Part shown: one piece after another, positions 4,932 to 64,000 of the stretch | How positions within the stretch are numbered: position 1 is the first letter of the stretch | Layout: every line of letters starts with the position of its first letter | Origin: Chondrosia reniformis | Taxonomy: Eukaryota > Porifera > Demospongiae > Chondrillida > Chondrillidae | Direction: 5' to 3' | Assembly (NCBI GenBank): GCA_947172415.1 | Contig: OX359194.1 | Location: 5,146,001-5,210,000 of the forward strand | Length of the DNA: 64,000 nt | Made by a program: the position numbers and the translations under genes | Notes under the pieces: model-generated | What the model was told of the DNA's origin: nothing | The model's database searches: none | Seen by the model: only the letters and a program-made list of their open reading frames with translations

Positions 4932-5830
4932 TATCAGAGAGTACGGTTGTACTCTCTAAGTAGGAATGGCCGAAAAAAGCCGCCCTATCCAATGTATTAG
5001 CAAGCAACACCTCATAAATCTCACCAACGAAGCAATTTTCGGTTATATTCAGTTATTTGCAGCCATTAATGCATGCTTTTCTAAATGCCAAAACATGTTT
5101 CAACGCCCTACATGTTCTACAGCGTTCAAAAAGTGGCTAACCAGGAATAGGCCCATTTCCAAATTCATTTTTTCTTCGTTTATTGAATAGACTAGCGCTA
5201 ATATGCGAACTTATGCGGGCACATACAGGTTATAAATCGTCATAAATATTTCCAAACTATATAGACAGCCCTAAATCTGAATGCGCTCTATAAGAAGCAT
5301 GTGAAAAGCGAAAATTGTGGTCTTCTCGGACGCAATGTTTAATTAAGAGATCATGGTTGTCAGCATAAATTTCTCTGTCTAAGACGATATTTCGAGATTT
5401 CCGCCAAGAAAACTTTCAAATCAATTTAAAACAAGTAATATTAAGAAGAAAAAAGGGGGAATACAAGTAAATAAAAAACATTTACAAAAATGTAGTTAGA
5501 AGTATATAGGAATGGCAGTGTTCACTAATACACTGCAAAAAGTATCGAAACAAGACCGTGATTATATGATAAGGTTAATCATACAGAAGTTGCATTTATA
5601 CTGAAATTAAAGTATATAACTTAACCATACACTTCTGTGTTTGGGCGCACTATATAAGCTGAAGTAGGAATGGTGCGCCCAAACACAGAAGTGTATGGTT
5701 AAGTTACTTAAATTTCAGTATACATGCAACTTCTGTATGATTACCCTTATTGTATAATCAGTGTCTTGTTTCGATACTTTTTGCAGATGTATTAGTGAAC
5801 ACTGCCATTCCTACTTCTAATATCATTTTT
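4932..5830. mobile_element. Fold-back element: non-coding body plus long-hairpin head
   Basis: The body (about 4932-5480) starts with a small hairpin, CAGAGAGTACGG..ACTCTCT, and matches the reverse complement of 24890-25424. The head (about 5509-5816) is an imperfect palindrome with arms of about 145 nt meeting around 5655. It includes a GCGCCCAAACACAGAAGTGT core on both arms. No protein is encoded. In the duplicated right-hand unit the corresponding place (about 47545-47820) has a different insertion, so this element arrived after the segmental duplication. It is probably a non-autonomous DNA transposon. Confidence 0.75.
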
Positions 5831-5844
5831 GAAAATGTTTTATT

Positions 5845-6065
5845 TACTTGTATATTTACAGTTTGTTGTTCCTTGATATGTAAAGTTTAACATATATTAT
5901 TGTTTCCCTGTTCTTAATTCAGATTTTATATATATGCCCCAAGGAAATCCTGTACATCCCAAATATCATGGCATGGGTATTAGTGATTTTATTTTGTAGC
6001 AAATATTATGTAGAAAAACTTAGACTTCTTTATATACTGGTGATAGTGATTTCATTTACTAACAT
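5845..6065. repeat. Copy of 47825-48045
   Basis: The stretch from the GTTTGTTGTTCC motif to about 6060 aligns with 47825-48040 in the right-hand unit, including the TATGCCCCAAGGAAATCCTG segment. It shows that the block duplication continues past the N4BP2-like 3' end. No gene is seen. Confidence 0.75.
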
Positions 6066-6596: not shown

Positions 6597-7559
6597 ATTA
6601 TGCGAATGCATGCAACCAACCGTTGGTATTCTTATATAGCTCCCTCACAGGGCAAATCAAATTAAATCTGTTGTGGTTATTAGCTGAGACCCCTTTAAGA
6701 CTGGAACCTTTGTTGATGTATGGCATGCAGATGCTTTATCTTCAGTCTATACTAAGGTGTGAAAAGGTAATTGATAGGCCGTTCTACCTTGCAATTGGAT
6801 GATAGTAGTTGAGAATTTCAAAGCCTGCAACAGTGTGACTAAAGTCTTGTACTGTTTAAAATACTGATTATCCTATGGGTCACTTGGATCTCTTGCACTG
6901 CATGTGTAGGTAGTACTTGATTGTAATTTTAATATTATATAGTCACTTGGACCTCATAATTATATAAATTTGCACATGTAACTTGTACTGTGTAGTACTT
7001 GATTGTAAATATTTATTTATTTATATTATATTATATTAGATAACCTTAGTATATTGTAACTTGTACTGTATTTATATTAGATTACCTTTTTAAATTAGTA
7101 TATATATTGTAACTTGTACTGTATATACAGACAAAATTACCATTCAACTCGCTATAGTGTGGGGCTTGCTCAGGCTCACCCCAACTAGAAATATTTAAAA
7201 AAAATTATGTACAAAAATGGGGAAGATGTAGGGATGGCACAAAAAGTACAGAAACAAGAAAATGATGTTACGCAGTGAAGCATTAGCTGTGTATGAATCA
7301 TACAACCAAGGGTGTTGCAACATATCCCTATACATCTGGCAACATTGGCATATATTTATAGAAACTGGGGCAGATGAAGCTGCAGTTCCCCTACCATAAA
7401 TATATATACTCCACACAATGACATGCAGTGAAATAAGTGTAAAGGCTGCAAGTATAGGAAAGTAGGACATAGACAAAGGCTTCCTATTATATATGCTAGT
7501 ATATATATACCTATGTACATGAAAAGAATAAGAATAGACATTGTGGCATACTCGTGACT
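6597..7559. other. Non-coding AT-rich stretch
   Basis: No convincing gene. It contains several TGTAACTTGTACTGTA motifs (about 6977, 7057, 7099), resembling a MITE terminal motif seen at many places in the window. A fragment at about 7205-7265 resembles the hairpin head of the fold-back family (GGGATGGCAC..GAAACAAGAAA). Confidence 0.5.
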
Positions 7560-11145: not shown

Positions 11146-11691
11146 TACAAGTGATTATAGATATTGAAGACTGCATATACGGTATGATCATGATAATATA
11201 AATATGCAGCAAAAGCAGAAACTAACTTACAACCAGCCAAACAGATTTTTCAAACTTGTGTTACCAAACTAACACAGGCACAAACCCAAAATGCAATTTG
11301 CATTAAATTAGTAGGAGAACATGCATGACTTTAGTTCTCAAAAAAGGACAATGTCATGTTACTTGCATGTACAGTTGCACATAGACACCAGACTCTACAC
11401 ATTTGTTACAATTCACTTGACAACTCTAGAAATATATACATATATATAGTAATTAAGCCCAGTTGCTAATCTTCTGAACTGTCAACTAAACATGTCAATT
11501 ATTGACTTCTATGCCACAAGAGCACAATCTATATACAATATGGAAGCAAGCATTCTGAATATTGACATTAGTTTTATAATAATACTAATAATAATTGTTT
11601 TAATTATTAAAGTGACACATGCTACAAACTAAGCACTATATAGGCCAAGCTGGGCCTATAAAAATTACTGTATTAGTTGGGTAAAGTAAAA

Positions 11692-12150
11692 TATATCTGG
11701 TCTGGAGTCACTGATTCATATGTCTGGTCTGGAGTCACTGATTTACATATTTGGTCTGGACTCATTGATTCATAAGTCTGGTCTGGAGTCACTGATTCAT
11801 ATGTCTGGTCTGGAGTCACTGATTCACATATTTGGTCTGAACTCATTGATTCATAAGTCTGGTCTGGAGTCACTGATTCATATGTCTGGTCTGGAGTCAC
11901 TGATTCACATATTTGGTCTGGACTCATTGATTCATAAGTCTGGTCTGGAGACACTGATTCACATATTTGGTCAGGAGTCATTGATTCATATGTCTGGTCT
12001 GGAGTCACTGATTCATATGTCTGGTCTGGAGTCACTGATTCATATGTCTGGTCTGGAGTCATTGATTCATATGTCTGGGCTGGAGTCACTGATTCATATG
12101 TCTGGTCTGGAGTCATTGATTCATATGTCTGGGCTGGAGTCACAGATTAG
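11692..12150. repeat. 27-bp minisatellite, about 17 units, open in frame on both strands
   Basis: The unit TCTGGTCTGGAGTCACTGAT plus TCATATG repeats in tandem with scattered substitutions. Because 27 is divisible by three and the unit has no stop in certain frames, long open frames exist on both strands: minus 11673-12143 with a nine-residue TYESVTPDQ repeat, and plus 11720-12157 with SGLESLIHM. No flanking splice signals or conserved domain support coding, so it is called a minisatellite. A repeat-coding exon cannot be excluded. Confidence 0.85.
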
Positions 12151-12410: not shown

Positions 12411-12888
12411 TAAGTGGGGATTGGCAAAAAAACATGGCTGCCTTATTTAATAAATTATCAATTAACACCTAATAATAAATCAGCAACGGTGCGATTCTGG
12501 TTATATTCGACTATTTGCAGTTGTTTGTTGTAGATGCCAAACCATGTTTCAATGCTCTGCAACCTTCAACCTAGAATAACCTACTCCCTAGTTTGGAGAA
12601 ATTAATGATGACTTACAATGAATGTCCTAGCATAAATTTGCTTGTTAGCATTAGCTCATTTGACAAAAGAAGAAAAAACAATTGGAATTGGAAATTGAGC
12701 TTACATATATTTCTATTTAACCAATTTGCAAACAATGTACATACACAGAGAAGTGAAACATATTTTGGCATTTAGAAAAGTGTATATAAGATTGCAAATA
12801 GTTGAATGTGAGCAAAAAGTGTAATGTTGTTGCTTGATAAATATAATACATTGAATAGATTAGCCTTGTTTTTTTGGCTATCCCTATA
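12411..12888. mobile_element. Palindromic MITE built from fold-back body sequence
   Basis: It begins TAAGTGGGGATTGGC and ends GGCTATCCCTA. The left half (12411-12570) is close to the reverse complement of the right half (12750-12888). Both halves match the body end of the fold-back elements at 23690-23870 and 25255-25400. Thus here the body sequence forms the inverted-repeat arms. Confidence 0.65.
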
Positions 12889-12950: not shown

Positions 12951-15900
12951 TCATATCAGTGTGCTAATTGCAGCTGCAAAATGCTCTATTGTTACTTACG
13001 TCCACAGCTAATAGGTACTGAGCAGGAGTTGTATGTGAGATGCCTTCCTCTACTGGGCAAATCCCACCTTGTTGATAGTGCATTCCACCTTTTTTTGTCA
13101 CTCCAGGTTATTGATGGCTATTTCAATTAAATTATACATACATACATATAATGTGTGTACATGTATATACATGAACGTGTGTGTATTTGAGGGAGAGAAA
13201 GAGCAAAAAGTGGGTAACTTGTAGTGAAGAAATGATTTCACTGTCATTACTTAAGAGACTTACACGCCATATACTTATACTCCTAGTCTGATAATAAGCA
13301 AAAAGATCCACGTAGCTGCTTGGCCAGCCACTGTATATTTGCAAGCAATTTGAAAGAGTTAGCTTAGGCTGAAAATTGACTTTGATACAGAATTTTGGTT
13401 CAACCTCATACACAAAATTTCCTGATATTTCAATACCCCCTCTGACAACTGCAGCCAAACTAGCACTTGCTCCTGCTGATGGTTGCAATGTTATTCTTGG
13501 TACAACTGATCCACAGGCAGCATAGTTCCTCTCGCATGCACAGTAATTTAATGTTCCTGAAAGGACCACACTCATCTACAAAATATTTATTATGATATAT
13601 AAGTGTAAAATAAATCCATCAATCCATATGTATATACATATATATAATAACTTTTTTGTTAACATTTAACCAATAAGTCAAAACTAAACAAATATTAAAT
13701 ACCTATTATATATATCATTCTAATAAATTAAATCTAACTTATTAATATAATGTTATATATAATACTTATTCACAACAATTTTAACTTACACTGATGTAAA
13801 ACCTCAAGTATCCAACATATATGAAAATTCTAAATGAAAAGTTAAACAGATTGATCCTTGCACTTCCCAAGCTTCTACTTCCAGTAACACAAGCCAAAGA
13901 AACAGAGCCATATTCATTATGCAGTACCTGTCCAACTATTTTGACATAAATTTTTTGATAGACTGAATTATATGATCTTTGTCTTAAAAATTCTATATCA
14001 ACTGCTGTAGCTGTCCGTCCAAAAGCATGACCTTTGGCAATAACCTTTGCAAATATCTGCAAAATGGATGGCTTTTATAATATGGCTAAACAACAAATAT
14101 AGCATACATCCTACGTATATACTTTGTATTTCTGTCCATTGTTTGCAATTCCTGCAAAACCTCCAATTCCAAAATCAGCATATACTTTAGATACACCATA
14201 TCTCTTGCCATAGATATATGCTTTATGTGATGGATAAGTTATGACATCACTTCTTCTGGAACTGTAGCTAGCAACTGCATCAAAACTACTGTTTCTTTCA
14301 TCCCAGTCTGATCCCCTACGTTTTCGAACCTTGAAAAATATATTCACCAATAATTCCAATTAAATAACTTATATGGGACCATGGACCCCCTAAAATGGTT
14401 CCCCCCAGTCTAAATATTTCAAAATATTCCCCCCCCCCCTGAACTAATATTTGAAATATTTGGATCCCCTTTACTGAACACATTTTCAATGATCTCTAGA
14501 CCTTTCATCAATAACTTATACTTGGAAGGTATTGCATTTATTACAACACATGCACAGGCCGTCTTTTGCTTTCAAAAAATAGGTTTCACACCTAGCTATA
14601 TAGACTGAAGATGATGCATCTACATGCCAGTACCAACAAAAGTTCAAAAAAGGGATAATATTTAACCACAGCAGATTTTATTTGCCTTGAAAGGGAGCTA
14701 GGTATACCGACGGGATGGTTGCATATATGCATTCACGTAATTATCTGGGTCAGAGACTATTTGGTAACTTGCACACAAGGGACATATAAGGCTGAGGCTT
14801 TTATACATGTCATACAATGTCACTTCTGTGAAATTATCATGTTCTTAATGTATTATTTAGCCTATAGGCTAACCTCTGTGAAATTCCAATGTTCTGTATC
14901 CTGTTCAAATATTGGATCAACCAGAGCATTGTCCCTCATCATTAGGATAAGCTTCCAGCATTCTTCAGTACCTACCTCTAGAAGGTAAGCTTCTACCAGT
15001 CTATAGAGTTCTTGGTTGTGTTCTCTCAAAGCTGCATTTACAATAGCTAAACTTAGATTAAAAGAACTCCCTTCTTCCTCAGTGGTTTGGTTATGATCCC
15101 TCTTTCCAGAAATCAAGGTTTTAACTATGACCTCCACTACCTATATATATTTGTGAAGTTTATAGAAAAACTGAACAGCATGAACATCAAAGTCTATGCA
15201 CAAGCATATATGCATGAATATACTATGCCTTACCTGTTCTTGGTTTGTTCTGTTTAATAACTTTTCAAAAATTTCCTGGGTCTTTTTAGAACTTGTGTGC
15301 ATTCGTAAGCTACTTATGGCTGTAAATTGAATATCTTCATTGTCATGTTGGACATATGGTTCTAAAGTTTGTATAGTGTTTTCCACTCCAGTATTACCCA
15401 AAGCATAAATCAGGTTAGTAATTGACTCAAATAAATCTTCATCTTTCTTTGTGTCATTGAGTAGCTTCTCTAACTTACCAAAAATAAGTTGCTTTATTTC
15501 AATCTACATAGAATTGAAAGCTGCATAAAAATCACAGATTTAGCTAGAGCTATATATAGACAATCTTACTTACCTCATCAGCATATCTAGCCATTGATCC
15601 TAGAACTAATAACAGGGGATCATTGTTTTGAATTAAATTAGCTAAAACTTCAACTGTAGTCCTTGTTACTCCAGGAAGAAAGGCCAAATTAATCTGCAAT
15701 GTTTCCATTTCTTTTGCTTCATATTCTTCATAATTATTTCGTAATTCAACCAAAGCATCCCTTAGCACCTGCATACATTATGGATCAGTACCATTATGCA
15801 ATCATGTATGTTTTTCACACAATGAATATATACTAACAGTCTCAATTGTGGGTTAAGAGAACAAGTATAGTTCGAGTTAAAAATTAACTTTCATTCTGTG

Positions 15901-16021: not shown

Positions 16022-19000
16022 CTACATATAGATATATGTACAACTACTAATACATCTTGGGTTATCATACTTCTTGAGCTTTTATACTCTTCACTGCTAC
16101 CAGTAATGAGTAAAGTATTTTTCTCATTTTAAAATCACTTTCCTTCTTCCCTGACCATATCTACGCATATATATAGTAGAACCATCAATTCATGTATTTA
16201 TAATGTTTGTATACCACATTGCCTCAGAAATGTAATGATAATGGGGGGCATTATCTACCATATACAGTGTGAATTGCTGATTAATAGGATAATACAACAT
16301 GAACTAGTTAATACAGAAAGTGAAGTAAATCTTTTGCATTTGTTTTCTTAGTTATTGGCCGTTTCTTTAGTCCCTGAAATAAATTAATGAATTCCTTTAC
16401 CTTTTTAGTAATTTCCTCCTGGACTGTTCAAAAGCCATGGCATGGGATACGTATATATAAATCAGCATATAGCCCATCACCTCAGACCAGCTTCCACCAA
16501 ACTATAATTATACTTGGCCACGGCTCCACCTCACTCTCATATTAAATTTTGCCTATAGTCCTTGCCTCTGGGCTATTAACTTACACACATATTGTATAAT
16601 CTGTATATAATACATTTATCAGAAAATTGTCGTCATCATATAAAATACATGAGCCACATAAAAAATCTTTTAATATATATATATATAGAATAAAGTAGAC
16701 TTTGCTAACCTGATGAAAATATATGATAAGTTCATCCATGACTGGACTTAAGTCAGGTGGTGTATCATACTGTGATTCATATATCAGCAGATTTTTAATT
16801 TTGTTCACTATAAATTATACAAAGTAAATGTTTCATATATATGTATTAAAAAAATATCTATAACTACAATCAAATACTACACAGTGCAAGTTACAAAATG
16901 CTCTGACTCCTGAGATAGCTACAATCAATTTAATCTGAAAGCCACATTTGTGGCCTTTAGGCCTACATGCACTAATTTCTTAACATTTATAGATATAAAG
17001 GAACGCATTAGAAACTACTGGGACAATATTATGAGTATTATAGGAATACAACACTTTGCTTAAAACCTGCACATCCACTCAAATCTTGTCAATCTAAACA
17101 ACTGTTGAAATATATTGAGTGTATGCATATACATCTATTCACGCACAGACTGATTCAGTATGGGCAATGTACCTAGTTTAATCTGTGTGGGATCCTTATG
17201 AAGCTGCTTCAAGGCAATTGGAATGGATGGAATTGAGTGTCTTAGCCAAGCAATATCTTCTTTGCTTACAGTTACTATATAAGTTTAGAGAAGGAAGTTT
17301 ATATTTACATAAGAATATAATAGTTTGAAGCTTTAAGAAATATATATATATATATGTATGCATATAAATGAACCATCCATATAGCATTGTATATGAATCA
17401 TCTCTATAATATTTAGGTATTTAACACCGCACAAATGCATGTGCACCTTCTTTGAAGTTGGCCATTATGTTATGCTTTTTAAGACCACTCATCCTTTTGT
17501 TATGCTCATGCTGTAGTGATCTCTTGTTAGCACCAGTAGCTATAGATTCTTCAGATGGCTGTTGACAATGAATTTGGACTAATTTATAGCTTCCACCCAT
17601 TGAGAATTTATTTCCCAAGTTAAAGCTTTCATTATAAGTGCTTTCATCATTTTCTAATGTAGTCATACTGTTAAAGATAAAAAGAAAAGTTATATGCACT
17701 TAAGTTATAATAATTGGACAGTACGTAAAATATATTATGTATATATATCTTTTAATTATCAAAAATGTATATAAACCATTACATTGCTTTCTTACTTTTC
17801 AACATCAGTGTTTTCATCTAATGAAAGAAATGTATGTCCTGAAGCTTGCACGAGGACTCTGTTGTTGAATGTAGCACTGTCCTCTTTGAAAAACGACTTT
17901 ACTAGCAGGTTTTCTTCAGGTGAAACTCCTGACAACTCCTCAATATCGGGAGTAGTCACTGTTCTTGTAAATGTATCTGAACCTTCCCCTAAAAAACTAT
18001 AAGACGCAATAACTACATTCATTTTGGGTTAATATACATCACCGGAGAATACGGTAGTATTAAACTGTCTAAGTGGGGGATGGCCATGGCCAGCCTATTC
18101 TATATTGCAGTATCAATAACACCTTAAAACACATTTGACTATAGGTTCATTGCTACGTTGTGACATAAGTAAGATTGTCTCATCATTTGACTCTAGATTT
18201 TACCCCACCATTCAGAGTATAATGATGAGACACCATAGCTTTAAGATTCAAATCATAAAGTCCCCTATTTTAAATATTTAGTAATCACCCACACTTTGGC
18301 TGTATCCCTTATCTGTTGATAAGGAAACCACAAGCTTTTAGTTCTTGGAGTATTTATCAACAGATTTCCTCTCAAAACGTCCATCGTATGCCATACTGAT
18401 GAGTCGTAAAATGAATTACTTCCAAAATAAAATTTAACTTGATCCATATACATACATTTCATTTCATCATGTGCCAAATAAATGGCATTATTAGTTCCAT
18501 TTCTAATGAACGTATTGGTAGGAAGAGGAAGTGATAAACTTTAACAGAGAATTGTGGAATTTTAAAGAACCTCCTACCAGGAGACACCATATTAGTGGAT
18601 CGTGGATTTGACATTAAGGATGGTGTCGGTTTTTTACTGTCCTACAATAAAGTTACTTTGCTTTTAAAAAGGGGAATTCGAAAAAGTTTAATATCTAGTG
18701 CAAGTTACAACATATTATATATAATATTGTAAATAAATAAATAATTAATTTAATATTTCATACAGTCCAATACAAGGTCCTATTATCATATTAAGGGAAT
18801 TTTAGGAGTTTAATTATAAATACTTAGTAGAATATTTAATTAGCCCTCCTATTCTGTAAATTGGGAATAAACTTCAAATAAAATGGACTGTACAACATAT
18901 AATATATAAAGGTATATCCCAATCTTACTCGTAATGAGAATTGTAAATGCCTGACACATCTGTTTCTCTTCGTAGCTTTTCTTGAGCAAAGTTTGCCTGA

Positions 19001-22276: not shown

Positions 22277-22730
22277 TTTATAAAAGTTATAATAACCAAT
22301 CAGTTTGATAATTTACCATACTGAAACTATATAATGCAATTATATAGGTTTCAGTACAAGAATTTGAACCTACATAATATGGGTATATATAATATATGGC
22401 TGTGTTTAAATTGCAATTTTGCAAATATATATACAACAGAAAATTTTGACTTTATTGAACTTCAGCAACCTGGTAACATAGTATATATATTTACCCGGGT
22501 ATATAATAGGGAATTCAAAGCATACACTGTACATGTAGCTATATATATTATAAGCTATGGTTTCTGAGAAGTTAGAGAATTTCAATATAACACTTGAGGC
22601 TTAGGGTTGAAGGTTACAGCAAGCATGTGATTCAATTAGGCCTCTGAGTTATCCACATCCTTTTAAACATGAGTCCAAATTAAACACTATACTCAACTAA
22701 TGAATTGATGAATTGCATTGTACGCATGCA
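22277..22730 (+). repeat. Dispersed repeat R1, copy b (longer form)
   Basis: Shares the R1 core and continues through TTCTGAGAAGTTAGAGAAT, ACTTGAGGCTTAGGGTTGAA and GCCTCTGAGTTAT, with the same order at 60545-61095. Confidence 0.7.
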
Positions 22731-22762
22731 TGTAAAATATTCAAAACTCATTCAATATATAT

Positions 22763-23136
22763 AAGTTAAATAAAAACATTCAAAAATGAAGTTAAAAGTA
22801 GGGATGGCACTATAACAGTGATTGGCACATCTAGAAAAAGTAACGAAACAAGAAAGTGATCATATGGTAAGGCTAACATTGCAGAAGTGGCATACTGAAA
22901 CTTAACTATACACATCACTTCTATGTTTGGGCGCATCATGGATATACTAGAAGTAGGGATCGATGCGCCCAAACATAGAAGTGATGTGTATAGTTAAGTT
23001 TCAGTATGCCACTTCTGCAATGTTAGCCTTACCATATGATCACTTTCTTGTTTCGTTACTTTTTCTAGATGTGCCAATCACTGTTATAGTGCCATCCCTA
23101 CTTTTAACTTCATTTTTGAATGTTTTTATTTAACTT
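22763..23136. repeat. Perfect inverted repeat, two 175-bp arms, 24-bp spacer
   Basis: I compared 22763-22937 with the reverse complement of 22962-23136 base by base and found no mismatch. The sequence is the hairpin head of the fold-back family, with core GCGCCCAAACATAGAAGTG. Transcription across it would give a near-perfect double-stranded RNA of about 175 bp. Confidence 0.95.
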
Positions 23137-23880
23137 GTATTGCTCCTTTTTTCTTGTTAATATTTGTTTTGAAAGTTTTCTTGGCGAAAACTCGAAATAA
23201 AGTAGCAGAATAGACGATATAATAGAGAGCTCTAAATTAAAAAATGGCGTCCGAAAAGATCCCAAATTTGATAAGATGTTTTCTACCGTTCTTTAACATT
23301 CAGTTTAGGATATTAAAGGGTCCATAATCGTTAAGAATACGACTATATATAGGCCCTGAAAAGCGACTAAGAAATTCGATCGCGGGTAACGGCAGTACCA
23401 CAAATATTACTCATTCGGGTTACTTATTTTATATACAGAGAATTTGAAACTTAATTAAAAAATGGCGTTCAAAGAGGCCTTAAATTTGGCACTTTCAAAA
23501 GTAACACGCTTCGGTTGGAGCGCGTTGAAATCTAGGGTAGCCTATTCCCTAGTTCGGAAACATTCATGACGATTTAGTATTTGTATGTACCTGCGTAAGT
23601 TCGCATGTTAGCGCTAGCTCATTTGAAAAAAGAAGAAGAAGAAGAAGAAAAAATGAGGAATTGCAGAATTTGGCCTATTTCGGTTTAACCACTTTGGGAA
23701 GGTTGTAGAGCATCGTAACATGTTTTGGCGTTTAGAAAAGCATGCAAAAACGACTGCAAACACACGAATGCAACCGAAAATCTGAACGTTGTTGATTTAT
23801 GAGGTGTTAATTGATAATACATTGAATAGGGCGGCCATGTTTTTTTTCGGCCATCCCTACTTATAGATATACAGTACAAG
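23137..23880. mobile_element. Body of the fold-back element belonging to the 22763 hairpin
   Basis: Similar in order to 24860-25424: TTTGAAAGTTTTCTTGGCG, an AAAAAATGGCG motif (twice here, about 23236 and 23457), CCTATTCCCTAGTTCGGAAA, a purine (GAA)n run, TTGGCGTTTAGAAAAG, and the end GGCCATCCCTACTTATAG. Together with 22763-23136 it makes a complete-looking non-autonomous element. No protein. Confidence 0.75.
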
Positions 23881-24131
23881 TTACAATATACTAAGGTAAT
23901 CTAATATAATTAATTAATTAATATAAATAAATAAATCATATAAATAAATCATATGGCTCCAGGAAAGGACCTAGCAACAGAATGGGCATAGTATCTTAAA
24001 GTTTAGGGTATAAAACTCATTTTAAATTAAGGGATTTCTTATTTAGGTCTCCGTTTGGTAGAAAACGGAGGACAAAGTCTGCATATATATATATATATGT
24101 GCATGCAAGCGGATATATTTGACTATAATAC

Positions 24132-24410
24132 AATTGCAGACACTTACATGGAATCAAGAAGCTGCATCAAAGCTATTTACAAAAGTTATAATAACCAATC
24201 AGTTTGCTAATTTACCATACTGAAAATTTACAATGCAACTATATAGGCTTCAGTACAAGAATTTCAATGATATATATGCATAAGGTGGTAATATTTAATT
24301 TGCAAATGCAAATATAACACAACATGTAGATTTTCAGTAACCAGGTGTAGTGCATGGGTATATACGTATACATATAGTAGGGAAACTTATAATATAAATA
24401 TATATATACA
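24132..24410 (+). repeat. Dispersed repeat R1, copy c, interrupted
   Basis: The R1 core is present. R1-like sequence resumes after the fold-back element at about 25428-25480 (ACTGTACATGTAGAGCTATAGG), so the fold-back element at 24540-25424 and an adjoining AT-rich stretch probably inserted within this copy. Confidence 0.6.
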
Positions 24411-24497
24411 GTGCAAGTTACAATATACTAAGGTAATCTAATATAATATAAATAAATAATTAATTAAATAATTCATATGGCTCCAAGAAAGGACCTA

Positions 24498-24529
<32 letters not shown>

Positions 24530-24539
24530 AAGTAAATAA

Positions 24540-25424
24540 AAAACATTTACATAAATGATGTTAGAAGTAGGAATGGCAGTGTTCACTAATACATCAGCAA
24601 AAAGTATCGAAACAAGACAGTGATTATATGATAAGGCTAATCATACGGAAGTTGCCATACACTTCTGTGTTTGGGCGCACTAACCTCAAGTAGGAATGGT
24701 GCGCCCAAACACAGAAGTGTATGGTTAAGTTACTTAAATTTCAGTATATATGCAACTTCTGTATGATTAGCCTTATCATATAATCACTGTCTTGTTTCGA
24801 TACTTTTTGCTGATGTATTAGTGAACACTGCCATTCCTACTTCTAACATCATTTTTGTAAATGTTTTTTATTTACTTGTATTCCCCCTTTTTTCTTCTGA
24901 ATATTACTTGTTTTAAATTGATTTGAAAGTTTTCTTGGCGAAAATCTCTAAATAACGTCTTAGACAAGAGAAATATGACGAAAACCATCTCTTAATTAAA
25001 AAATGGCGGCCGAGAAGACCACAATTTTCGTTTTTCACAATTAACATGCTTCTTGTAGAGCGCATTCAGATTTAGGGCCGTCTATTCCCTAGTTCAGAAA
25101 TATTTATGAGGATTTATAACTTGTACGTGCCCGCATAAGTTCGCATATTAGCGCTAGTCTATTCAATAAAAGAAGAAGAAAAAATGAATTTTGGAAATGG
25201 GCCTATTCCTGGTTAGCCACTTTTTGAGCGCTGTAGAGCGTGTAGAGCGTCGAAGCATGTTTTGGCATTTAGGGAAGCGTGCATTAATGGCTGCAAATAA
25301 CCGAATATAACCGAAAATCGCTTCGTTGGTGATTTATGAGGTGATGATTGCTAATACATTGAATAGGGCGGCCATATTTTTTTCGGGCCATTCCTACTTA
25401 GAGAGTACTACCGTACTCTCTGAT
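24540..25424. mobile_element. Fold-back element, second complete-looking copy
   Basis: The hairpin head (about 24542-24874) has a left arm lacking about 33 bp compared with its right arm and an 18-bp centre near 24690; otherwise the arms match closely. The body runs to 25424 and ends with ACTTAGAGAGTACTACCGTACTCTCTGAT. It is opposite in orientation to 4932-5830 and very similar to it. Confidence 0.8.
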
Positions 25425-28650: not shown

Positions 28651-31600
28651 GTATATGTTTGATCCCTCAAAGCTCTCTGAAAACCATGAGAAGAACAGAT
28701 TAAAAGGTTAGTATGAATTACATAATACAATATTTAACTTATCTGATCACAAAACTTATTCAATGATACGAATGAAATTAAAAAAGTAAATGCCTATACA
28801 GTGTTTTATTGCCATTTCTTAATTTATTGTTGCTCTTTAATGCTTAATTCAAACCTTATTTTTTATGCTATCCAGCCCTAAAAGCTGTTGAGGAGGGAAT
28901 TTCCCCTGTTATCATTGATAATACCAACATGACCAAACGGGACATGGAGCCATATGTTCTTATGGTTTGTTAAGGAAGTGTTTATTGTAAAGTACCCTTT
29001 GATATGGATATTGCAGTGGTATAGCTATTACTTGTGTGTTATTAGCTTATGTTATGTACAAGTAGTGGATGCTCTGAGTCAGTTAAACTTACTTAATATA
29101 TTTTCACGCATTTCACTTGACAATGTTATATACTTTTGAGCGAACTTGTCCCATTGCATTGGATTACGTACCTTTAAATTTGTTATATGCCAACAAGCAG
29201 ATTATGCAATAAAGCATTATGCAATTAAGTGGAGTCCACTGTATATCCATAAATGATGTTTCTGTCATTAATGAGGCCTTTTGGCCACAGGTGCACTTCA
29301 GTGCACTGTGTGTGCTTTAGAAGTGAAAACACCACTGATCCACCTCCTCATGCACATACATGCACACTGTACATATGTCTCATACAGTAAGTCAACTCTG
29401 GATTTCCCCCACCCACTCATGTCTCCTGAGGAGCGTAATGAGTTAGTGGGTGGAACCTAGGTTCACGTAATGAGAACTAGAGTCTCCCCGCTTAACCACT
29501 CAAAAGATAGTTGAGCCATAGACAGCTGTTTCGTCCTTCTGAGGACTCATCAGTATGGCAGTCTGAATGGCTTCTCTGCTAATATATCCAGAGTCCACTG
29601 ATGAGATGTCAGAACCTTTTGATCTTCAAATCCTCAATTTTTTCATTACAATATACATTGATGGCTTTAATCATTTGGCATAAGTGTAATGCAGACTTAT
29701 GGAGTATTAGGACATTGTATAGCCATTGTACGTACATATGTAATGTAATGCTTACCGAGTTCTATTGCTATTTAGGGGTATAAGAATGGCTATGTAATTG
29801 AGTTCAGGGAAACCACCACTCATTGGAGACTGAATGTTGATGAATGTTTCAGGTACGTACATTCCGACATTCACCCTATTGCACCTACGTAAGTGTTTTA
29901 ATGTTTGTGCCATTACTTTATACAGTGCTCATATTAGCTTTTTATTGAATGTATAGAAGAAATTCCCACAACGTCCCAATATATGCTATTGAGAGAATGT
30001 TATACCGATTTGAAAAGAATGTGTCTGTAGAGTCTATTATTGGACCAATATCCAGAAAGTCACTGTAAGTACAATACACATACTTTTATAGTGAAATGGT
30101 AAAATGATGAACTGAAATGTTCACATACTTATATGCGACTTCAAATTTAAGGAGTCTTTGAAAGTTAAAGTGATCATCAAGCCACAAGTAATTATAATCA
30201 GTCAAACATCATAAACAAGGAAAAACATGAAAGAAGCAAATGCTGAGAATCGAACCCAGGACAGCTGATTATGACAACCAGTTGCTCTGCCACTGAGCTA
30301 CAACTGCCACAGCAAAGCCTCCCTCTTTCTTAAACTAACTACAAGCTAGTAATTAGTCTTCATTCATTAATTAGTGGTAATTCTCCTTATCAGGACAAGC
30401 TGATAATCAATAATAATGAACTATAATTAATTGCACACACATATTTGTGGTTTTAGTACATACCTATGACCACTACTACCACTAAGAAAACCTCTACTGA
30501 GCCATTAAGAGTAGGTTAACTATCTATCATCAAAACATGTCACCTTTAGTTACATGTATAGCTATATATACGTATTAACTAGAAGCTGACATGTTTTGAT
30601 TAAAAGTATAAAAATGTATTGATTTTTAGTCGGAAGATCTAGTAAAATATACAAGTATATAAAAAATCTCTGCTGTGAGTAAAAGGTATATTTCTGTAAG
30701 TAGGAATCCACTCATATAAGCACAGTTTATGCTATGTTTTATATACCTTATCCACTTTGTAATCAGTCAGAAACTATACTAAAATTAATCAAATGTCATG
30801 ATAGATACTGTACATACTTACTTTATCAAAAGTAGGCTCCACTTTGTGCTGCAACATACAGCCACATCTGTTTCATGTACTTTAGCCTGCTATCATCTTA
30901 CTGTACGTATGTATGTAGATCTGATAATCCTAGAGGATATAGCACTGGAAATGAAGAGGTGGACGGCTACCCTACCAATGCTATCAATAGTAACACTGGG
31001 AGTCAGAAAGGACTGGTCTGCTGCAAAAGTTGCTGAAAAACCACATGAATCCATAGACACTGAAGAACCGATCCTAAACAACGATCAAGCTGAACCCAAT
31101 GAATTGTACGATCCAGAGGGTCAATTGGAATGGCCTTACACGGACCTGCCGTACGAAGGTCTTCAATCTACAAGTGAATTTGATAAGTTGATCAACTTGG
31201 CCCTTCCTCAATCTGAGACTTTAGAAGATTTTGCAGACACAGATCCTGCATTACTTCCTCCCCCATTGTCCCTAGCTTCATTTGATGTTAAAAGAGCCGA
31301 TCTTGGAGATAACATATTTTTAGGTGATTGTGAAGGGACATTTATAATTATCAATTATAATGCTAACACAGAAGAATATTTGGCAGCTACTGATCCCTCA
31401 TTTGCACAGTCTGATAAGCAGACATCTGATTTGGACATGGTTCCAAATGGTGAATACACTTTTGATGATCTAAATCCTCAAGACTACAGTGGTGTTGTAA
31501 GCCACAGCAGTTATACTCTCTCAGATCCAACTGATACGGTGAACACAAATGCTGTAACTAACCCTGAAGAACCGCCCACTATTACCACAGTAACATATAC

Positions 31601-34600
31601 AAGATCTAATGGAGAGGGAGCCATAGGCTTTCTTATAGATTGTTTTCCTGATAAGCCTGAGAGTGTTTTGCTTCACTGTTGGGAGTGCTCTGGTGGAATA
31701 ATTGACACCTGCATGGATTTGATTTTAACATCTGACCAGGAAGAAGTAGGTTCGAATGATGCAGCCTGCTCCGAATCATCTAAATCAACAGATTTTGTAC
31801 AAGTTGAAAATGATAATCCTTCAAGGCTGATATCCGAATATTCTGGTTCTGTCCCAGAGTATCAAGAAGATGAAGACTTCCGGTTTGCCAGGCAGTTACA
31901 AGACGAGTGGAATTCACAAGAAAAGGGAAGTAAACCTCCTTCATCCTGGCCAAATGTTAGTGAAGAAGGGACCACACATTCCGGCCCTGGTCCACCCGAT
32001 AAAGATGATGAACAGTTTGCTAAAGAATATGGTGTGGACGAAGGCTTTGTCTTAAGGCTGCCACGCATGCTTGCATGCCACTTGCAGGAACAGTATGGAT
32101 CAGTGGAAGAGTATATAGAAGGAGGTAATTGAATGAATACACTTATACATACGTATGTTCCCTACATTAGTATGGATCGCTGGCCACTAACATATATCTA
32201 CAGTATCTAGGAGGTCTTGGGACTGTAAGTCTCTGATTACAATTGGCAGCAATTAAACAATTTTATTAAGATGGCTGCCCTGAATTATAATTTCTGCAAT
32301 TCATTTAATCCTTATCATACTTGTAATGCAGAAGTATAGCTTCTATACAGACATATAGCCAACTGGCCAGCTATAGTTCCCTGAGCCCCTTACTTACATT
32401 AGTGAAATAGTGTTATGTGGATACATAAAAGTATGCTAACAATTAACTGCTTTTGGGTGCCTTTTCATTAAGTTTAAAATAAGTTTGTATTTGGTGCACT
32501 TCACTTCATCTCTACACATTCAACCCTATTGTGTATAGTGGAGTATCTTTATTTCCATTCGAGAATTTACGTTGGTCAAGCTGTAGTTGAGTAATGCTTG
32601 ATATTATTTCTCACCACTCCGAGTGAGAAATCCTTTTGTAAATGTGTTGATTTACATCTCTCTATAAAGGCAATAATGTTAGACACCTTTGACTTTCGGG
32701 ACTAAGATTTTGTAAAGTGTTCCTTCATGATTATCACTCGCTTCTACAGTATGTGTGACATCCCATCATGACTGGCGAGTATAAACATTAATTTTGCGGT
32801 ATATTTTTTTCTCATTGCCCAGTTCCAATCTTTTGTGTGATTTTTCCAATTGCTACGTACATCCACATATACATTGCGTTATTCAAGTAGCCCATGTAAT
32901 TTTATCAAAAAAAGAAACATGAACAATTGAGTAAACAGCTAATAGCTAGTAATTCCTACAATCTTGAATAAGTCATACGGTAAGTACATTAAAGGTAGCC
33001 TAGTTTTCTTGGTGTTTACGTTATGCTTCTGTTAAACTCTATTTTGTACAAACTACGCATGTGACCTCCTTTTCTGGATGATAAGGAGGACAGGGAATTC
33101 CACTGCAGGTAGCTTCCACATGATAGAAAACAGCTCCATTAAGGTCTGCAGCACTTCCTGGAATGTACTCTGGGTTCTTGTCCACACACTCATACATTGT
33201 ACGGTAGTGAGCATTATTATGACGAGTAGCCATAAGGTAACCTTGATATTCTTTGGTCCATCCTGTCATGCAACTAGTCCTAGCTGGTATCATGAAATGT
33301 GCTGACCTTGTTGGAACATAGCACACAGCACATGGAACATTGAGGTCATGTACATTTGGGAGAGGTGATTTGTTGTATAATTCATACTCAGTCCCATGTA
33401 GTGGGTTTGTACCTTGCACTCCTGGGTAGTAGTCTGAATACTCTGGGGTTTCTGGGAGGCAGAGATAGTTGGCTCCACCTCCTGGTGTATTCCACCAGCT
33501 ACCAGCTGTTATTCCTTCATACAGTATTTCTGCATCCTGTGTTGTAGGACATGTTGTTCTGCCCCATCTTGTATAAACTATACCACCACTGCGGGGACCA
33601 GGCTCTCCCGTTATTCCAGTGTGACCAGGATGTCCAAGTTCCCCTTTCAGACCAACTGGTCCTGGTGAGCCAGTGTCTCCTTTGCTACCGGTATCACCTT
33701 TAGGACCTTGATCACCTTTAGGACCAGGATGTCTATCCAGTGTATTAAGTATTGCTTGAATGGGACAGTTGTTGCTGTCACTGCTTTGTCTTTTAGGCCT
33801 TTCCACTGTATAAATGTATATTTTAACAATGCTCAGTTTACTCTATTATTAAACAGTGTATTTCTCAACCAGTTATATAGACAACATGGGATATACCTAC
33901 ATATAAGAAGTATTTAGCTAGATACTTAAAGGTTCTGCATAAGAGGTGCTTTTGAAGATAAGTGTTTGTATTTTAGATCTTACTTTCCCTAGGGACTATG
34001 CATATCTGGTACAAATCCTTTCTTATTAGCTCTGTCTAGTAATATGTATACAAGTTGATAGAATTTGTATTTATTATATCTAGTTTTATCTGTACATGTG
34101 CTTAAGGTAATTTTGGATAAGTTAATTCCCAAAATTTCCTGATAGCTATTAAATCTTATATTCACAACTACAGCAATTTATAACTAAGCTTCTACAGTAG
34201 CATTGCTAAGTTACCTTCCCCACTTGCTGCCATCAGTGGAAAGCTGAGCAGTAAAAGAACTAGTTTTGTCTTCATAACGCAATAATACTTCCCTTATGTT
34301 GTTTTCATTTGCCGATTACGTTGTATGGCTTCATGTTATGGAAAGATACGTAGATATATAGATATACCACAGCACTGAGGTGTACTTACTGTATATGGGT
34401 TTTGGAGTCACGAGACCCAAGGGTGGGTGACTCCAAAAATCTGTAATACACCAAAGCGCTGTGGTAAGTGCATTTTGAAGCCTACAGCGTTTATACACAT
34501 TTGGTGGGATTCTTTTGACCTGTTTTCATGTTATTGTATAAATTCAATTAACATCTTCAATAATTGGCAGTGATACACCCTCTATGGATTGCTAGTGGAC

Positions 34601-45530: not shown

Positions 45531-45660
45531 TCTTCCTCTGTATATCTGTCTGTCTCTCCCCCCTCCTGCTCCCTCCAACTCTTCTTGGCCCTTGGCATAT
45601 TAGTAATAAATATTGTTCAGTTACTAGATAATTTTCTCATTTGTAACTTGCACTGTGTGG
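42395..45660. repeat. Right member of the N4BP2-like 3' block duplication
   Basis: Homologous to 485-2945 plus 4583-4790. Homology starts abruptly near TATTAATTTGATTGGG in both. Confidence 0.85.
42530..43735 (+). repeat. Local tandem duplication including a 49-nt exon
   Basis: About 42530-43140 and 43141-43735 are direct copies (AAAGATTGTGAGATGAAGCTT to ACTGACATGTAAATAG). Each carries the exon AATCAGGAAGCTGTTAGTGA..ACAAGG (42907-42955; 43554-43602) with acceptor and donor. The left block has only one copy. The exon is 49 nt, so using both would shift the frame. Confidence 0.8.
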
Positions 45661-45885
45661 TACTTGATTATGTATATATATATACAGTGGAACCTCCAAA
45701 TAACGGACATGCTCAGACCCACCATCTTGTCCTTTATTCAGAGGTTGTCCTCTTCTCAGAGGTTGGCCCATAATCACCCTCTAAACAACTAATTGTGTAA
45801 TAGCAGCTAGCTACCAGTTATATAGTGACACTATATTAGACTCATGGTCATGAAAATTATAAATATAATGCAATAAATACACACC

Positions 45886-46384
45886 TAGTCTCGCACAGTC
45901 CAGACTGCTATTTTGCCTCCATATTTTCTTGATGACGTCACATGGTCAGCGAAATAGGGTCTGGTGAATAGCCTATACCATTGTTGTTCTGATCCACCAT
46001 AACTTGGTGGTTCATTAATATTCAGTTACCATGGTAATAATGACATTCATACCTTATAACGCATTGGTAACCGAGAAAGGTTTCGAAAATTGGAACTTGC
46101 CAGCTATAGAGAGCAGCACGATGGAGCTTTGTTGCTTCGAAATTGTTGTCAGAATTTATGATGCTGTACATGAGTTTGCTAATTGATCAAACTGCAAAGC
46201 GCCAACTTTCCAATGTTTGCAAAGTGATTTCGTTTCTAACCGTTTTGTTAACAGAAGTTACTAATTAGTTACACCCCCAGAACAAAAAAACAGTATAGGC
46301 TATTCACCAGACCCTATTTTGCCAACCATGTGACATCATCAAGAAAATATGGAGGCAAAATAGCAGTCTGGCTATGTGAGACTA
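45886..46384. mobile_element. MITE with long terminal inverted repeats and 9-bp target duplication
   Basis: ATACACACC occurs on both sides (45877-45885 and 46385-46393). The ends TAGTCTCGCACAGTCCAGAC and GTCTGGCTATGTGAGACTA begin inverted repeats of roughly 95 bp (TTTTGCCTCCATATTTTC; AATAGGGTCTGGTGAATAGC). A 9-bp duplication with long terminal repeats fits Mutator-like elements. It is nested inside the pogo-like element. Confidence 0.8.
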
Positions 46385-46507
46385 ATACACACCAACAAGT
46401 TATATGGGGATTAGGAAGTCCAAATTAGGGTTTTCTTTGTATATATTCTATAGCTACAAACACTATAACATTTGATTAATTCATGCAATTCTTCTTCATT
46501 TTGAAAG

Positions 46508-46550
46508 TTCAGCGGCAGATATTATTCACTGAATAATATCTGCCGCTGAA
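46508..46550. repeat. Perfect palindrome, 21-bp arms, 1-nt spacer
   Basis: TTCAGCGGCAGATATTATTC and its exact inverse, inside the pogo-like element. Confidence 0.9.
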
Positions 46551-46806: not shown

Positions 46807-47600
46807 TACATATAATCCATAGCATTCAATTTTTGACACCTTGAGTATGCAAGGATTCTCATCAGCCAGGACGTGTTAGATTGTCATGCACCTGCTCAAC
46901 ATAGCTTCTTATACGTAGGTGTACGTTGTGACATAATCTTCATTACGTTCTCCATTTGCTCTTGAGCAGTCAAAATCTGCCCGCATCAGCCATTTTGGTG
47001 TGTCCCTGCCCAAAACACTGCTCCCTCGGGTCCAGGGATGCCCACATTCAGGCATACCACTCAATGTTAACAAGAGTGAGCAAAAACTCATTGCCATAAC
47101 TACGAAGACTGGATTGATTAACAAACGACGTGTAAATCGCAGCAATGTTTTGTGCGCAAGTCTACTGTACTGTTCTTTTTATATCTTAATGCTATGTCCG
47201 TGAGTGTACTATTCATGTAAATTCGACATCTCTTAACGTTACATGTGTGAATCAATTGTTCAGAACAAGATGTCACATGCGCGACTCTATTTTTTCCACT
47301 AACCCCTTCAAAACATTCACAATCATCGTTACATTTTCCCAGTTCTTCATAATAATACTCCATGCGCATTATTATTATAGTTATCAGTATACGCACCTGC
47401 CCTGCTTTCAAGCAAGGCTCTTGCATTATAAGTGTATGCACTAGTAATACTAATGATATACATATACAGTATGTAGTCACAAACATACAAATATGGTGTG
47501 TACATAGTCCATCAAGTTTTGTCCTACGTATGTAATGTTATTAGTTATATATTTTTAGTTTAATCGAATAAGGATTTCTTCTTACATCTTTCGAGCATCA
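46807..47600. other. Non-coding; partly shared with the left block
   Basis: 47465-47540 matches 4868-4930. The rest has no convincing gene; short open frames lack splice or domain support. Confidence 0.5.
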
Positions 47601-47604
47601 AAAA

Positions 47605-47775
47605 CGCAGTTTGGCTTGATAAATATTTTGTCAAGCATTTCGACCCTGAGGGTCTTCATCAGCGACTGGCTGGTGTCCATAAAAGGACCACTGAAAATTC
47701 TATCCATTAGTCGCTGATGAAGACCCTCAGGGTTGAAACGTTCGACCAAAAGATTTATCAAGCCAAACTGCCTTT
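47605..47775. repeat. Inverted repeat with about 65-bp arms
   Basis: GCAGTTTGGCTTGATAAAT to TCTTCATCAGCGACT is followed by its inverted copy, with a centre of about 45 bp. The left block has the fold-back element 4932-5830 at the same place. Confidence 0.75.
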
Positions 47776-48349
47776 TATATAGACGCTCAAGAGTCGAAAG
47801 ATGTACCATCTAAAATATATATTTACCGTTTGTTGTTCCTATATGTAAACATATAATATTATTATATTCTCTGTTCTTAATTCAGATTTAATATGCCCCA
47901 AGGAAATCCTGGACTCATTGAAGTATTTCTAATATAATAACATCATGTGCCTTAGTGATTTTGTAGCAAACATTATGCAGAAAAACTCTAAGACTTGTTT
48001 ATATATACTGGTGATAGTGATTTCATTTACTAAAACTTATATATATTGTTAGTCAAATTATACAGTATGAATAAATACTAATTTCAATTTATATAGCAGT
48101 CTCAGCACCACAAATTTCATTTTAATCTAGATTTTTTAGCTGTTAGCTTAATTTGTGAATGCTTATTACGCTTAAACAAGCCCAAAGTTATTTGTAGATT
48201 AGTAAAGGATGCAGCATGCAAGGACAGAGATTGAGTTGAAATTCAGGTCGAGGGAAAGATCCAGATTGCCTGGAGAGTGCATGCTGAATATTTGACTTTT
48301 GCAATTCCCTACTAATCATGCAGCATACATTTCGTAACCATGACACTGT

Positions 48350-49864: not shown

Positions 49865-49895
<31 letters not shown>

Positions 49896-52800
49896 CACAC
49901 ATATTATAATGCGTGAGAGAGCAAAAAAGAGTGCATGAGTATAACTTGTAGTGAAAAAATGATTTCACTTTCATCTTTCAAGAGACTTACACGCCATCCT
50001 CTCCTTCTTATACTCCTAGTCTGATAATAAGCAAAAAGATCCACGTAGCAGCTTGGCCAGCCACTGTATATTTGCAAGCAATTTGAAAGAGTTAGCTTAG
50101 GCTGAAAATCAACTTTGATACAGAATTTTGGTTCAACCTCATACACAAAGTTTCCCGATATTTCAATACCCCCTCTGACAACCCCAACCAAACTAGCACT
50201 TGCTCCTGCTGATGGTTGCAATGTTATTCTTGGTACAACTGATCCACAGGCAGCATAGTTCCTCTCACATGCACAGTAATTTAATGTTCCTGAAAGGACC
50301 ACACTCATCTACATAATATTTATACGATATATATAATGAGTGTAAAATAAATCCATCAATCCATATGTATATACATATAATATCTTTTTTGTTAACATTT
50401 AACCAATAAGTCAAAACTATATAATCCCATAAAAGATTAAACAAATATTAAATACCTATTATATCATTCTAATAATCTAATAATCTAATTTATTAATATA
50501 ATGTTATATATTATACGTAATACTTATTCATAACAATTTTAACTTACACTCATGTAAAACCTCAAGAATCCAACATATATGAAAACACTAAATGAAGAGC
50601 TAAACAGATTGATCCTTGCACTTCCCAAGCTTTTGCTTCCAGTAACACAAGCCAAAGAAACAGAGCCATATTCATTATGCAGTACCTGTCCAACTATTTT
50701 GACATAAATTTTTTGATAGACTGAATTATATGATCTTTGTCTTAAAAATTCTATATGAACTGCTGTAGCTGTCCGTCCAAAAGCATGTCCTTTGGCAACA
50801 ACCTTTGCAAATATCTGCAAAATGGATAATGCATGGCTTTCATAATATGGCTAAACAAATATAGCATACATCCTATGTATATACTTTGTATTTCTGCCCA
50901 TTGTTTGCAATTCCTGCAAAACCTCCAATTCCAAAAGCAGCATATACTTTAGATACACCATATCTCTTGCCATAGATATATGCTTTATGTGATGGATAAG
51001 TTATGACATCACTTCTTCTGGAACTGTAGCTTGCAACTACATCAAAATCACTATTATATTCATCCCAGTCGGATCCCCTACGTTTTCGAACCTGGAAAAA
51101 TATATTCACCAATAATTCCAATTAAATAACTTATATGGGACCATGGCTGTTTACATTATATTAACACTGCAGATGTTATAATGGCTTTGTGTGCAAGTTA
51201 CAAGATGACATATGCTCAAAATCAATTTTGAGTTAACAATACACAAGTTTTGTATTTTGTATCGGCATAAGTTTGCATGTAAGCGTTAGTTTGTTAGAAA
51301 AAGAATTAAGAAGAATGAATTTGGAATTGGGCCTATTGCTGGTTAACCACTTTGTGATGTTGTAGAACATCGAAATTCATTTTGGCATTTAGAACACCAT
51401 ACAAAAATGACTGCAAATAGTCGAACATAACCGAAAAGCGAATCGATGATTTATTCCATACTAATATGTATAATTAATATTACATTAAATACAGTGGCCA
51501 TTTTTCCGGCCATTCCTATACTTTGCAAGTTACAATATATTTACTTGTACAACTCCTAGGATGGTCAAGTGAAGCAAATGTTCACAATATATATTATCAT
51601 TTTAAGGGAATTGTACATGACTTAAATTTAGCAAAAATTTTAATTAGGCTTCCATTTTCCCGTAAATTTCAATTTTAAAAAACCATTGGACTGCATACAG
51701 TGTGTACAGTATGTGGGATGCTTTATATTTGTCAGGTTTACCCACAAATTTACACAATAATTGGCTAGCTGACACTTATACATAGGTTATACATATATTG
51801 TACATAAATCACCATATATTGCATTTGAGTGGCTTTGTAGTAATTCTTTTTAGTACATACGTAACAAGGAAATGTAACATTTCAAGATTTGGTGAAATAA
51901 TGTAAATGTTTGGCCTGCCACCAAAGAGTAGTATAACTATATGGTATTTCTTTGGGTATCTCAGAGAGCCTGAAAGAGTTAACATTTTACATATACGCTA
52001 CAGCTACCACTACAATCGAGTAATAACCAGTTTAAGTTACAAAATGTTCTGACTCCTAGGATAGCTACAAACAAGTTTAAATATTAAATATGTAGTGCTC
52101 CTGCTACCAGCAAATACTTGACATTGAGACATTAATTCAGATTAACAAGATCACATTTATATATTCATAGAGCTACGTAGCAATAATGTAGAGTAAATGG
52201 CACATCATGGACAATTACATTTTCACATCTAGCATCTGTAGGCCCTATATTTTTTATGCATACAATACAAAGATATATATTTCAATAATACATTGACACC
52301 AAATAAGGATATACGTAGGCTCACTTCTGTGTAATTCTCGTGTTCTATAATATCTTGTTCAAATATTGGATCAACCAGAGCATTGTCCCACATCATTAAG
52401 ATAAGCTTCCAGCATTCTTCAGTACCTACCTCTAGAAGGTAAGCTTCTACCAATCTATAGAGTTCTTGGTTTTGTACTCTCAAAGCTGCATTTACAATAG
52501 CTAAACTTAGATTAAAAGAACTCCCTTCTTCCTCAGTGTTTTGCTTGTGATCCCTCTTTCCTGAGATCAAGGTTTTAACTATGACTTCCACTACCTATAT
52601 TTGTGAAGTTTATAGAAAAACTTAACAGCACCCAAATTATCAAAGTCTATGCACAAGCATATATGCATGAATATACTATACCTTACCTGTTCTTGGTTTG
52701 TTATGTTTAATAACTTTTCAAAAATTTCCTGGGTCTTTTTAGAACTTGTGTGCATTCGTAAGCTACTTATGGCTGCAAATTGAATATCTTCATTGTCATG

Positions 52801-53413: not shown

Positions 53414-53447
<34 letters not shown>

Positions 53448-63021: not shown

Positions 63022-63104
63022 ATCCAGTACACTAAACTTCTGTGAAACATTAATTAGGGGTGATATAATGTATGAAGACATTTGTTAAGAGTAGGCAGAA
63101 ATGG

Positions 63105-63235
63105 CCAGTGTTGCAAATTTAATATATAGCACATCTAAAAAAAGTAACAAAACAAGACAATAATCTGCAATGATACTACGTATAACCATACAGAAATGGC
63201 ATAATGAAATTTAATTAATATATGACTTATACATT
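63105..63235. mobile_element. Decayed single arm of the fold-back hairpin head
   Basis: GCACATCTAAAAAAAGTAAC, AAAACAAGACAATAATCTG and CATACAGAAATGGCATAATG parallel the left arm at 22820-22910. There is no inverted partner. The rest of 63240-63690 shows no supported gene. Confidence 0.6.
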
Positions 63236-64000
63236 CACATCATTGAATGTTTCACTCAAAGAACAACAGTTTTAAAAAGCTAGGTTAAGAAACTGCCTTT
63301 CTTGTGTGGGAATATAGAGAACCGTTTTGTATACACCAATTTACATGCCATACGTACATCTACTTTAGACCTATAGGTAACTAAACCTAATTAATGAGAG
63401 CTTGGCTGAGGATATACAGATATATACAAGAATTTTCTCCTTCTCTTCTCAACTGGGCCAGACAGATGTTTCTGGGTATTCCACCCTTCATCACGACTCT
63501 GGGAATCTTTGTCATTTTCATATGTAATATCTACATACATAGGAGTGGCTGTGGATGTCCAGAGAGGTACTCTTCTAGATTAAGAGGCTAATGCATGTGT
63601 TAAAAAGTGCTAGCCCAAGATCTAGGATAAATGTATATACACCTACTGTAAAAATGGTAATGTCATAGAGGATGGTATATACTAATGTGATCCATGTGCT
63701 CCATGTGACTTCTATAAATTGAGCCTTTTAAACCAGAGTAAAATTAGAATTATATTTAATATAACTGTTAGTGAACATGTGGTGTGCTAACATTGCATAT
63801 ATATAGGTAATAACTATACATATAGGAAGTGTTGTATATAAGGAAAATGGACTATAGTCTGTGTTGTTGACCCCTTGTTCGTCAATTACAATAATATAGG
63901 AAAATATATACCTATATATACTTCTGTTCTCTATCCATGAACATGTAGTGCTTGCATTGATGGAGGGATTGTCTGTGCAGTGGTTGATTACTTTCCTGTT

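Follow-up and report, generated by a model that had tools for sequence, protein, structure and literature searches.

We found that a 374-bp hairpin with identical arms, located in the window (the whole 64-kb stretch of DNA that was analysed), is probably one end, a palindromic one, of a non-autonomous DNA transposon ~0.9-1.1 kb long, and that its two arms have probably been equalised by copying of one arm from the other. We compared the arms and spacers of three paralogous copies of this element. Arms that change together, and a spacer that is flipped between paralogous copies, are traces that arm-to-arm copying leaves in a family of repeats.

A perfect hairpin at the head of a repeat

The original prediction described a hairpin with identical 175-bp arms. 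Its coordinates were exact, and the arms were reverse complements of each other at 175 of 175 positions, on either side of a 24-nt spacer (Table 1). Outside the arms there is a single mismatch at 22762 (T vs C) and then three further matches. We listed the perfect inverted repeats in the 64-kb window whose arms were 25 bp or longer and whose span did not exceed 800 bp (n = 11). The 175-bp arms were the longest, and the runners-up were 94, 36 and 34 bp. Five of the 11 fall in heads of the hairpin's own repeat family, including the 94-bp repeat. The predicted RNA fold of 22759-23140 (382 nt) had an energy of -316.5 kcal/mol, compared to a mean of -78.9 for shuffled sequences; none of 100 shuffles was as low. 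A transcript of this region would, as modelled, fold into a long duplex.

The hairpin is the head of a repeat of ~0.9-1.1 kb that consists of a palindromic head followed by a tail and has no long open reading frames (ORFs). By comparing the window to itself we found three copies: c2, which contains the hairpin (22763-~23862, + strand), c3 (24530-~25423, + strand) and c1 (~4934-5850, - strand). c1 and c3 were 85.9% identical across 950 aligned bases, with matches at 446/495 positions in the tails and 322/351 in the heads. c2 was 22-25% diverged from both, in head and tail alike. Its tail matched that of c3 at 379/493 positions and that of c1 at 366/476 (76.9% in each case), and its head matched at 262/338 (77.5%) and 273/365 (74.8%), respectively.

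We also searched the window with nhmmer, using a head profile built from four of the six arms and a tail profile run likewise. These searches recovered decayed head fragments and tail relatives (Table 1). Further tail-profile matches were at 48766-48863 (E 8.7e-6), at 23234-23270 inside c2 (E 3.5e-4) and at two weaker sites (E 0.015 and 0.051). Neither the self-comparison nor the profile searches found a close relative of c2 in the 64-kb window.

Table 1. Positions of the hairpin, its repeat family and the segment paralogous to the c1 flanks (window coordinates).
Feature	Position	Strand	Remarks
c2 head, outer arm (175 bp)	22763..22937	+	0/175 mismatches vs 22962-23136
c2 spacer, 24 nt	22938..22961	+	contains AGTAGGGAT, which differs from the 13-bp motif of the family at 3 positions
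c2 head, tail-side arm	22962..23136	-	exact reverse complement of 22763-22937
c2 tail	23137..~23862	+	ends in inverted 13-bp motif; 76.9% to c3 and c1 tails where aligned
c3 head palindrome	24530..24877	+	aligned arms 129/131 identical; inner deletion in one arm
c3 tail	24878..25423	+	terminal short hairpin AGAGAGTAC..GTACTCTCT, then GA adjoining TA
c1 head palindrome	5465..5849	-	aligned arms 165/176 identical; spacer inverted vs c2, c3
c1 tail and terminal small hairpin	4934..5464	-	
Decayed single-arm head fragment	63083..63244	+	nhmmer E 9.9e-12
Decayed single-arm head fragment	7196..7272	+	nhmmer E 2.4e-4
Tail relative, without head match	51258..51518	+	nhmmer E 1.8e-43
Tail-like sequence inverted at both ends	12412..12886		12412-12568 on -, 12571-12886 on +
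Paralogous segment of c1 flanks	47442..48033	+	different insert between 47442-47548 and 47818-48033

Arms and spacers compared within and between copies

We compared the two arms of each copy to each other and to the arms of the other copies. We used flank-free counts; counts that include a few flank columns were 169/184 for c1, 132/135 for c3 and 179/183 for c2. The arms of c2 matched at 175/175 positions within the copy, vs 78-81% identity to arms of the other copies. The arms of c3 matched at 129/131 positions, vs 93.0-96.1% to the arms of c1; the longest perfect run in this head is 94 bp, and the asymmetry of its arms comes from the inner deletion. The arms of c1 matched at 165/176 positions (93.8%), with scattered mismatches, and this is no higher than the identity between c1 and c3 arms. 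That is, arms were more alike within than between copies for c2 and c3 (two of three copies) but not for c1. Because the arms of c1 are no more alike than those of c1 and c3 are to each other, homogenisation appears to have been episodic rather than continuous. The related heads had been described as clearly diverged in their outer half. They do differ from the c2 head, but the differences lie along the whole length.

The two arms of c2 have changed together. An alignment of all six arms contained 122 columns after 75 gapped columns were dropped. In 89 of these columns all arms were the same, and in 22 both c2 arms had a common base that was absent from all four other arms. There were no columns in which the c2 arms differed from each other, and the remaining 11 varied among the arms of c1 and c3. 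When the rule was relaxed, so that two or more of the other arms had to be present and to agree, there were 30 columns shared by the c2 arms, and again none in which they differed. The arms of c2 have not been held still, since c2 is about equally diverged in head and tail.

In the tail, changes private to c2 were found in 84 of 472 columns. If the two arms had changed independently at that rate, the probability of finding 0 differences in 175 positions would be ~1.6e-30; the 95% upper bound on arm divergence is 1.7%. Based on this improbability we infer that one c2 arm was overwritten by a copy of the other at a late stage of the c2 lineage, either in place or in the source of c2. The palindrome had been predicted to be very recently made or homogenised. 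Recent homogenisation is borne out when set against how old the family is, given the 84 tail columns and the absence of any arm difference. In contrast, the palindrome itself is not new, because all three diverged copies carry it; it predates the divergence of c1, c2 and c3. The identity of the arms gives no date for the origin of such an element.

It is quite possible, at somewhat less than an even chance, that c2 simply belongs to a divergent subfamily and was newly inserted from a source with perfect arms, with no copying in place. This is a sub-case of arm-to-arm copying, and the chance that we give it is the chance that no copying occurred in place. The lack of arm differences and the similar divergence of head and tail, as in a subfamily, are in keeping with it. 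However, it shifts homogenisation to the source, where copying is still needed, and the window is without a close relative of c2.

The heads of c1 and c3 were less diverged from each other than their tails, and the columns that set both c3 arms apart numbered 1 of 122, vs 5.7 expected at the tail rate (Poisson p 0.023). Thus, the head may have been under some constraint, or the history may have been uneven. We found no clear signal of GC excess in the arms, with 12 W->S vs 9 S->W changes (38 vs 29 in the tail).

Another way to keep arms paired would be selection for an RNA that folds into a long hairpin, whether for siRNA/piRNA production or for another role, acting by compensatory change. The very stable predicted fold and the somewhat greater conservation of the c1 and c3 heads are consistent with such selection, and PMC6211395 describes transposon-mapping endo-siRNA clusters with secondary structure in Amphimedon. 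In contrast, the 175 pairs contain neither a mismatch nor a G-U, a degree of identity beyond what RNA pairing needs, and the palindrome of c1 has decayed. In addition, there was no match to Rfam at the hairpin; the sole match in the whole window at the gathering threshold was a tRNA at 30235-30307. We consider selection on an RNA most improbable as the cause of the arm identity.

The spacers also differ in orientation. With the tail set to the right, AGTAGGRAT is forward in the spacers of c2 and c3 and reversed in that of c1. For the c1 spacer, the alignment score against the c3 spacer was 28 when reversed vs 7 when forward, and that against the c2 spacer was 19 vs 10; in each case, none of 5000 shuffles reached the reversed score. 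The common orientation of c2 and c3 was weaker when taken alone, with the score reached by 115 of 5000 shuffles (1240 of 5000 for the reverse). That is, c1 carries its spacer in the opposite orientation to c2 and c3.

Genome assembly is known to go wrong at perfect inverted repeats as long and as close together as these 175-bp arms, and the hairpin could be a fold-back chimera or the collapse of two near-identical arms into one consensus. Several results argue against an artefact. The edges of the palindrome are shared with c1 and c3, and the spacer of c2 is related to the spacers of both. The same assembly also preserves arm differences, at 11 of 176 positions in c1 and at 2 of 131, plus the inner deletion, in c3. 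A fold-back would not be expected to match two other, diverged copies in its edges or to resemble them in its spacer, and such an artefact is therefore unlikely. Overall, we judge an artefact to be very unlikely; it is possible that a few arm differences were collapsed in the consensus of c2.

The homogenised arms and the flipped spacer of c1 together fit template switching or gene conversion between arms, in place or in the source of c2, and the data fit both of these processes. In either case the arms would sometimes pair, when one strand folds back at a replication fork or during repair of a break, and one paired arm would be copied from the other. Such copying would erase mutations present in a single arm or spread them to both, and could flip the spacer. 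For c2, the last copying, or an insertion from a freshly homogenised source, would have been recent on the time scale of the family. Crossing-over between the arms could be an alternative source of the spacer flip. Work in yeast (PMC8604942) describes spacer inversion and arm homogenisation as traces of template switching between the arms of inverted repeats. In RNA genes (PMC8794818), loop inversion alone is found in excess (69 cases). The combination of compensatory change with loop inversion is described there as very rare, with 6 cases and no excess, which weighs against the copying that we propose.

Ends, insertion and class of the element

A 13-bp motif, AAGTAGGRATGGC, is found in inverted orientation close to both outer ends of the element. 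It recurs in the spacers, with one mismatch in c1 and c3 and in a degenerate form, with three mismatches, in c2. When up to two mismatches were allowed there were 13 sites in the window, vs 1.6 expected; 11 of the 13 were inside the three copies (12 of 13 when the fragment at 7226 is counted). As a guess, the motif may be a transposase-binding site. We found no terminal inverted repeat at the outer ends beyond this subterminal motif, and the outermost bases differ. The palindrome of c2 is a long snap-back inverted repeat of the kind found in foldback elements. However, these repeats do not lie one at each end of the element: both arms sit in the head, and the tail end has only the short motif in common with it.

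We compared the c1 insertion to a paralogous segment. The flanks of c1 match 47442-47548 and 47818-48033, and the c1 element is absent there. This is not a clean empty site, as another insert is present there, and the comparison covers c1 alone; no clean site paralogous to c2 was found within the large duplication in the window. The repeat is, like a MITE, a discrete unit, present in three copies and seen, for c1, against a site without it. It also appears to have no coding capacity, with none of the 23 ORFs in the window (at least 110 aa, stop to stop, standard code) overlapping any of the three copies. There is TA on both sides of c1, and the AT-rich target is compatible with a target site duplication (TSD) of 0-3 bp. 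The absence of the c1 element from the paralogous segment suggests that the unit is a non-autonomous DNA transposon lying in TA-rich DNA. It is most likely MITE-like, with a one-sided foldback (palindromic) head. No transposase was found by Pfam among the 10 of 23 ORFs that were scanned.

Helitrons begin with TC, end in a hairpin followed by CTRR, and insert between A and T without a TSD. Read in reverse, c1 has by eye a similar pattern, A^TC at one end and a short hairpin and CTTG^T at the other. The A^TC end is kept in c3, and the paralogous flanks of c1 are compatible with the absence of a TSD. However, CTTG differs from the usual CTRR end, neither c2 nor c3 retains it at its outer end, and a TA TSD fits equally well. 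We regard a Helitron-like element as rather improbable.

Known systems and the surroundings of the repeat

Arm-to-arm copying is already known, and given its precedents this family is an instance of a known phenomenon. The placement of both arms at one end is the oddity of the c2 family. Galileo, a foldback-like transposon of the P superfamily in Drosophila (PMC2775673, PMC3688188), has terminal inverted repeats (TIRs) that in GalileoN-1 and -2 show >99% identity inside each copy but ~7% divergence from one copy to the other, similar to the pattern here. GalileoN-4 and -5, which are chimeric after ectopic recombination, have the reverse pattern (PMC2775673). The long TIRs of Galileo also contain repeated transposase-binding sites, the role guessed above for our 13-bp motif. 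In contrast to the repeat described here, Galileo makes a 7-bp TSD and has long repeats at opposite ends; furthermore, no transposase was identified in the window among the 10 of 23 ORFs scanned. Tetris, a foldback element (PMC4079207), is likewise non-autonomous and modular with long inverted repeats, and its internal repeats were possibly homogenised in two of three complete copies. Its TSDs are 8-10 bp and Mutator-like, whereas our element has a TA-rich target that is compatible with a TSD of 0-3 bp.

The template-switch cases in yeast (PMC8604942) and RNA genes (PMC8794818) share with our family both arm homogenisation and inversion of the spacer or loop. The yeast arms are ~7-16 bp and were followed on strain trees, whereas we compared 175-bp arms and three paralogs. 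Mitochondrial genes of nematomorphs (PMC6649704) contain long perfect palindromes in which the arms, of up to 142 bp, undergo concerted evolution. These palindromes are mitochondrial and protein-coding, and ours are in a non-coding repeat that is presumably nuclear. The palindromes of primate sex chromosomes are a case on a larger scale (PMC8981503, PMC3723533).

A more tentative notion, which we think unlikely as it stands, is that the family is a one-ended foldback lineage in which a palindromic head of >170 bp is made perfect again, copy by copy, through repeated copying between the arms and flipping of the spacer, in step with replication or transposition. If so, it would be a natural assay of template switching at long palindromes in an animal nuclear genome. 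A large set of copies genome-wide, if it exists, would allow the rate of copying and its tract length to be measured in arms much longer than the 7-16 bp of yeast.

We looked for relatives of the element elsewhere. In a limited look at open-licence papers on MITEs, foldback elements and palindromes in sponges or Amphimedon, no such family was named. The head pattern was found in 0 stretches of viral contigs, and the c2 element alone (22700-23900) had no match among plasmids and phages in distant mode. By arithmetic, about one chance match to the head pattern was expected in genome_contigs. There was one match, in a Prevotellaceae MAG, in that collection, which we rejected as chance: it covers 20-22 bases, with nothing comparable around it, in DNA of 50% GC.

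The window contains a large direct duplication in pieces (~1-20626 vs 42397-58277), most of the pieces 82-95% identical and some 72-79%, and its two copies carry different inserts. One insert with inverted repeats (47549-47815) is at the position of c1 in the paralogous segment; another is at 45886-46384, with arms that are 88.9% alike. A short AT-rich interspersed repeat is present at 23862-23973, 24399-24497, 7010-7080, 18691-18791 and 56355-56465. One of its copies adjoins the end of the c2 tail and another is just before the c3 head.

Pfam matches were found in two of the 10 ORFs scanned (Vitellogenin_N, HEAT_2 and Collagen). The ORF at 15144-15503 (- strand) matched Vitellogenin_N above the cut-off and HEAT_2 just below it, which suggests a lipid-transfer-protein gene. 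This ORF is similar to one at 52591-52956 (- strand). Two near-duplicate collagen-like ORFs, at 33042-33842 and 37588-38379 (both on the - strand), are 93.6% identical over 1432 bp of DNA; the scan covered the first of the two, which matched Collagen above the cut-off. Together with the composition of the DNA, the collagen-like ORFs point to an animal genome, probably that of a sponge. The ORFs at 2988-3446 and 36061-36504 (+ strand), without a Pfam match at E 0.01, resemble by eye the remnants of a transposase and of a reverse transcriptase. There is also a tandem array at 11691-12148, in which 17 copies of a 27-bp unit leave one open frame on each strand.
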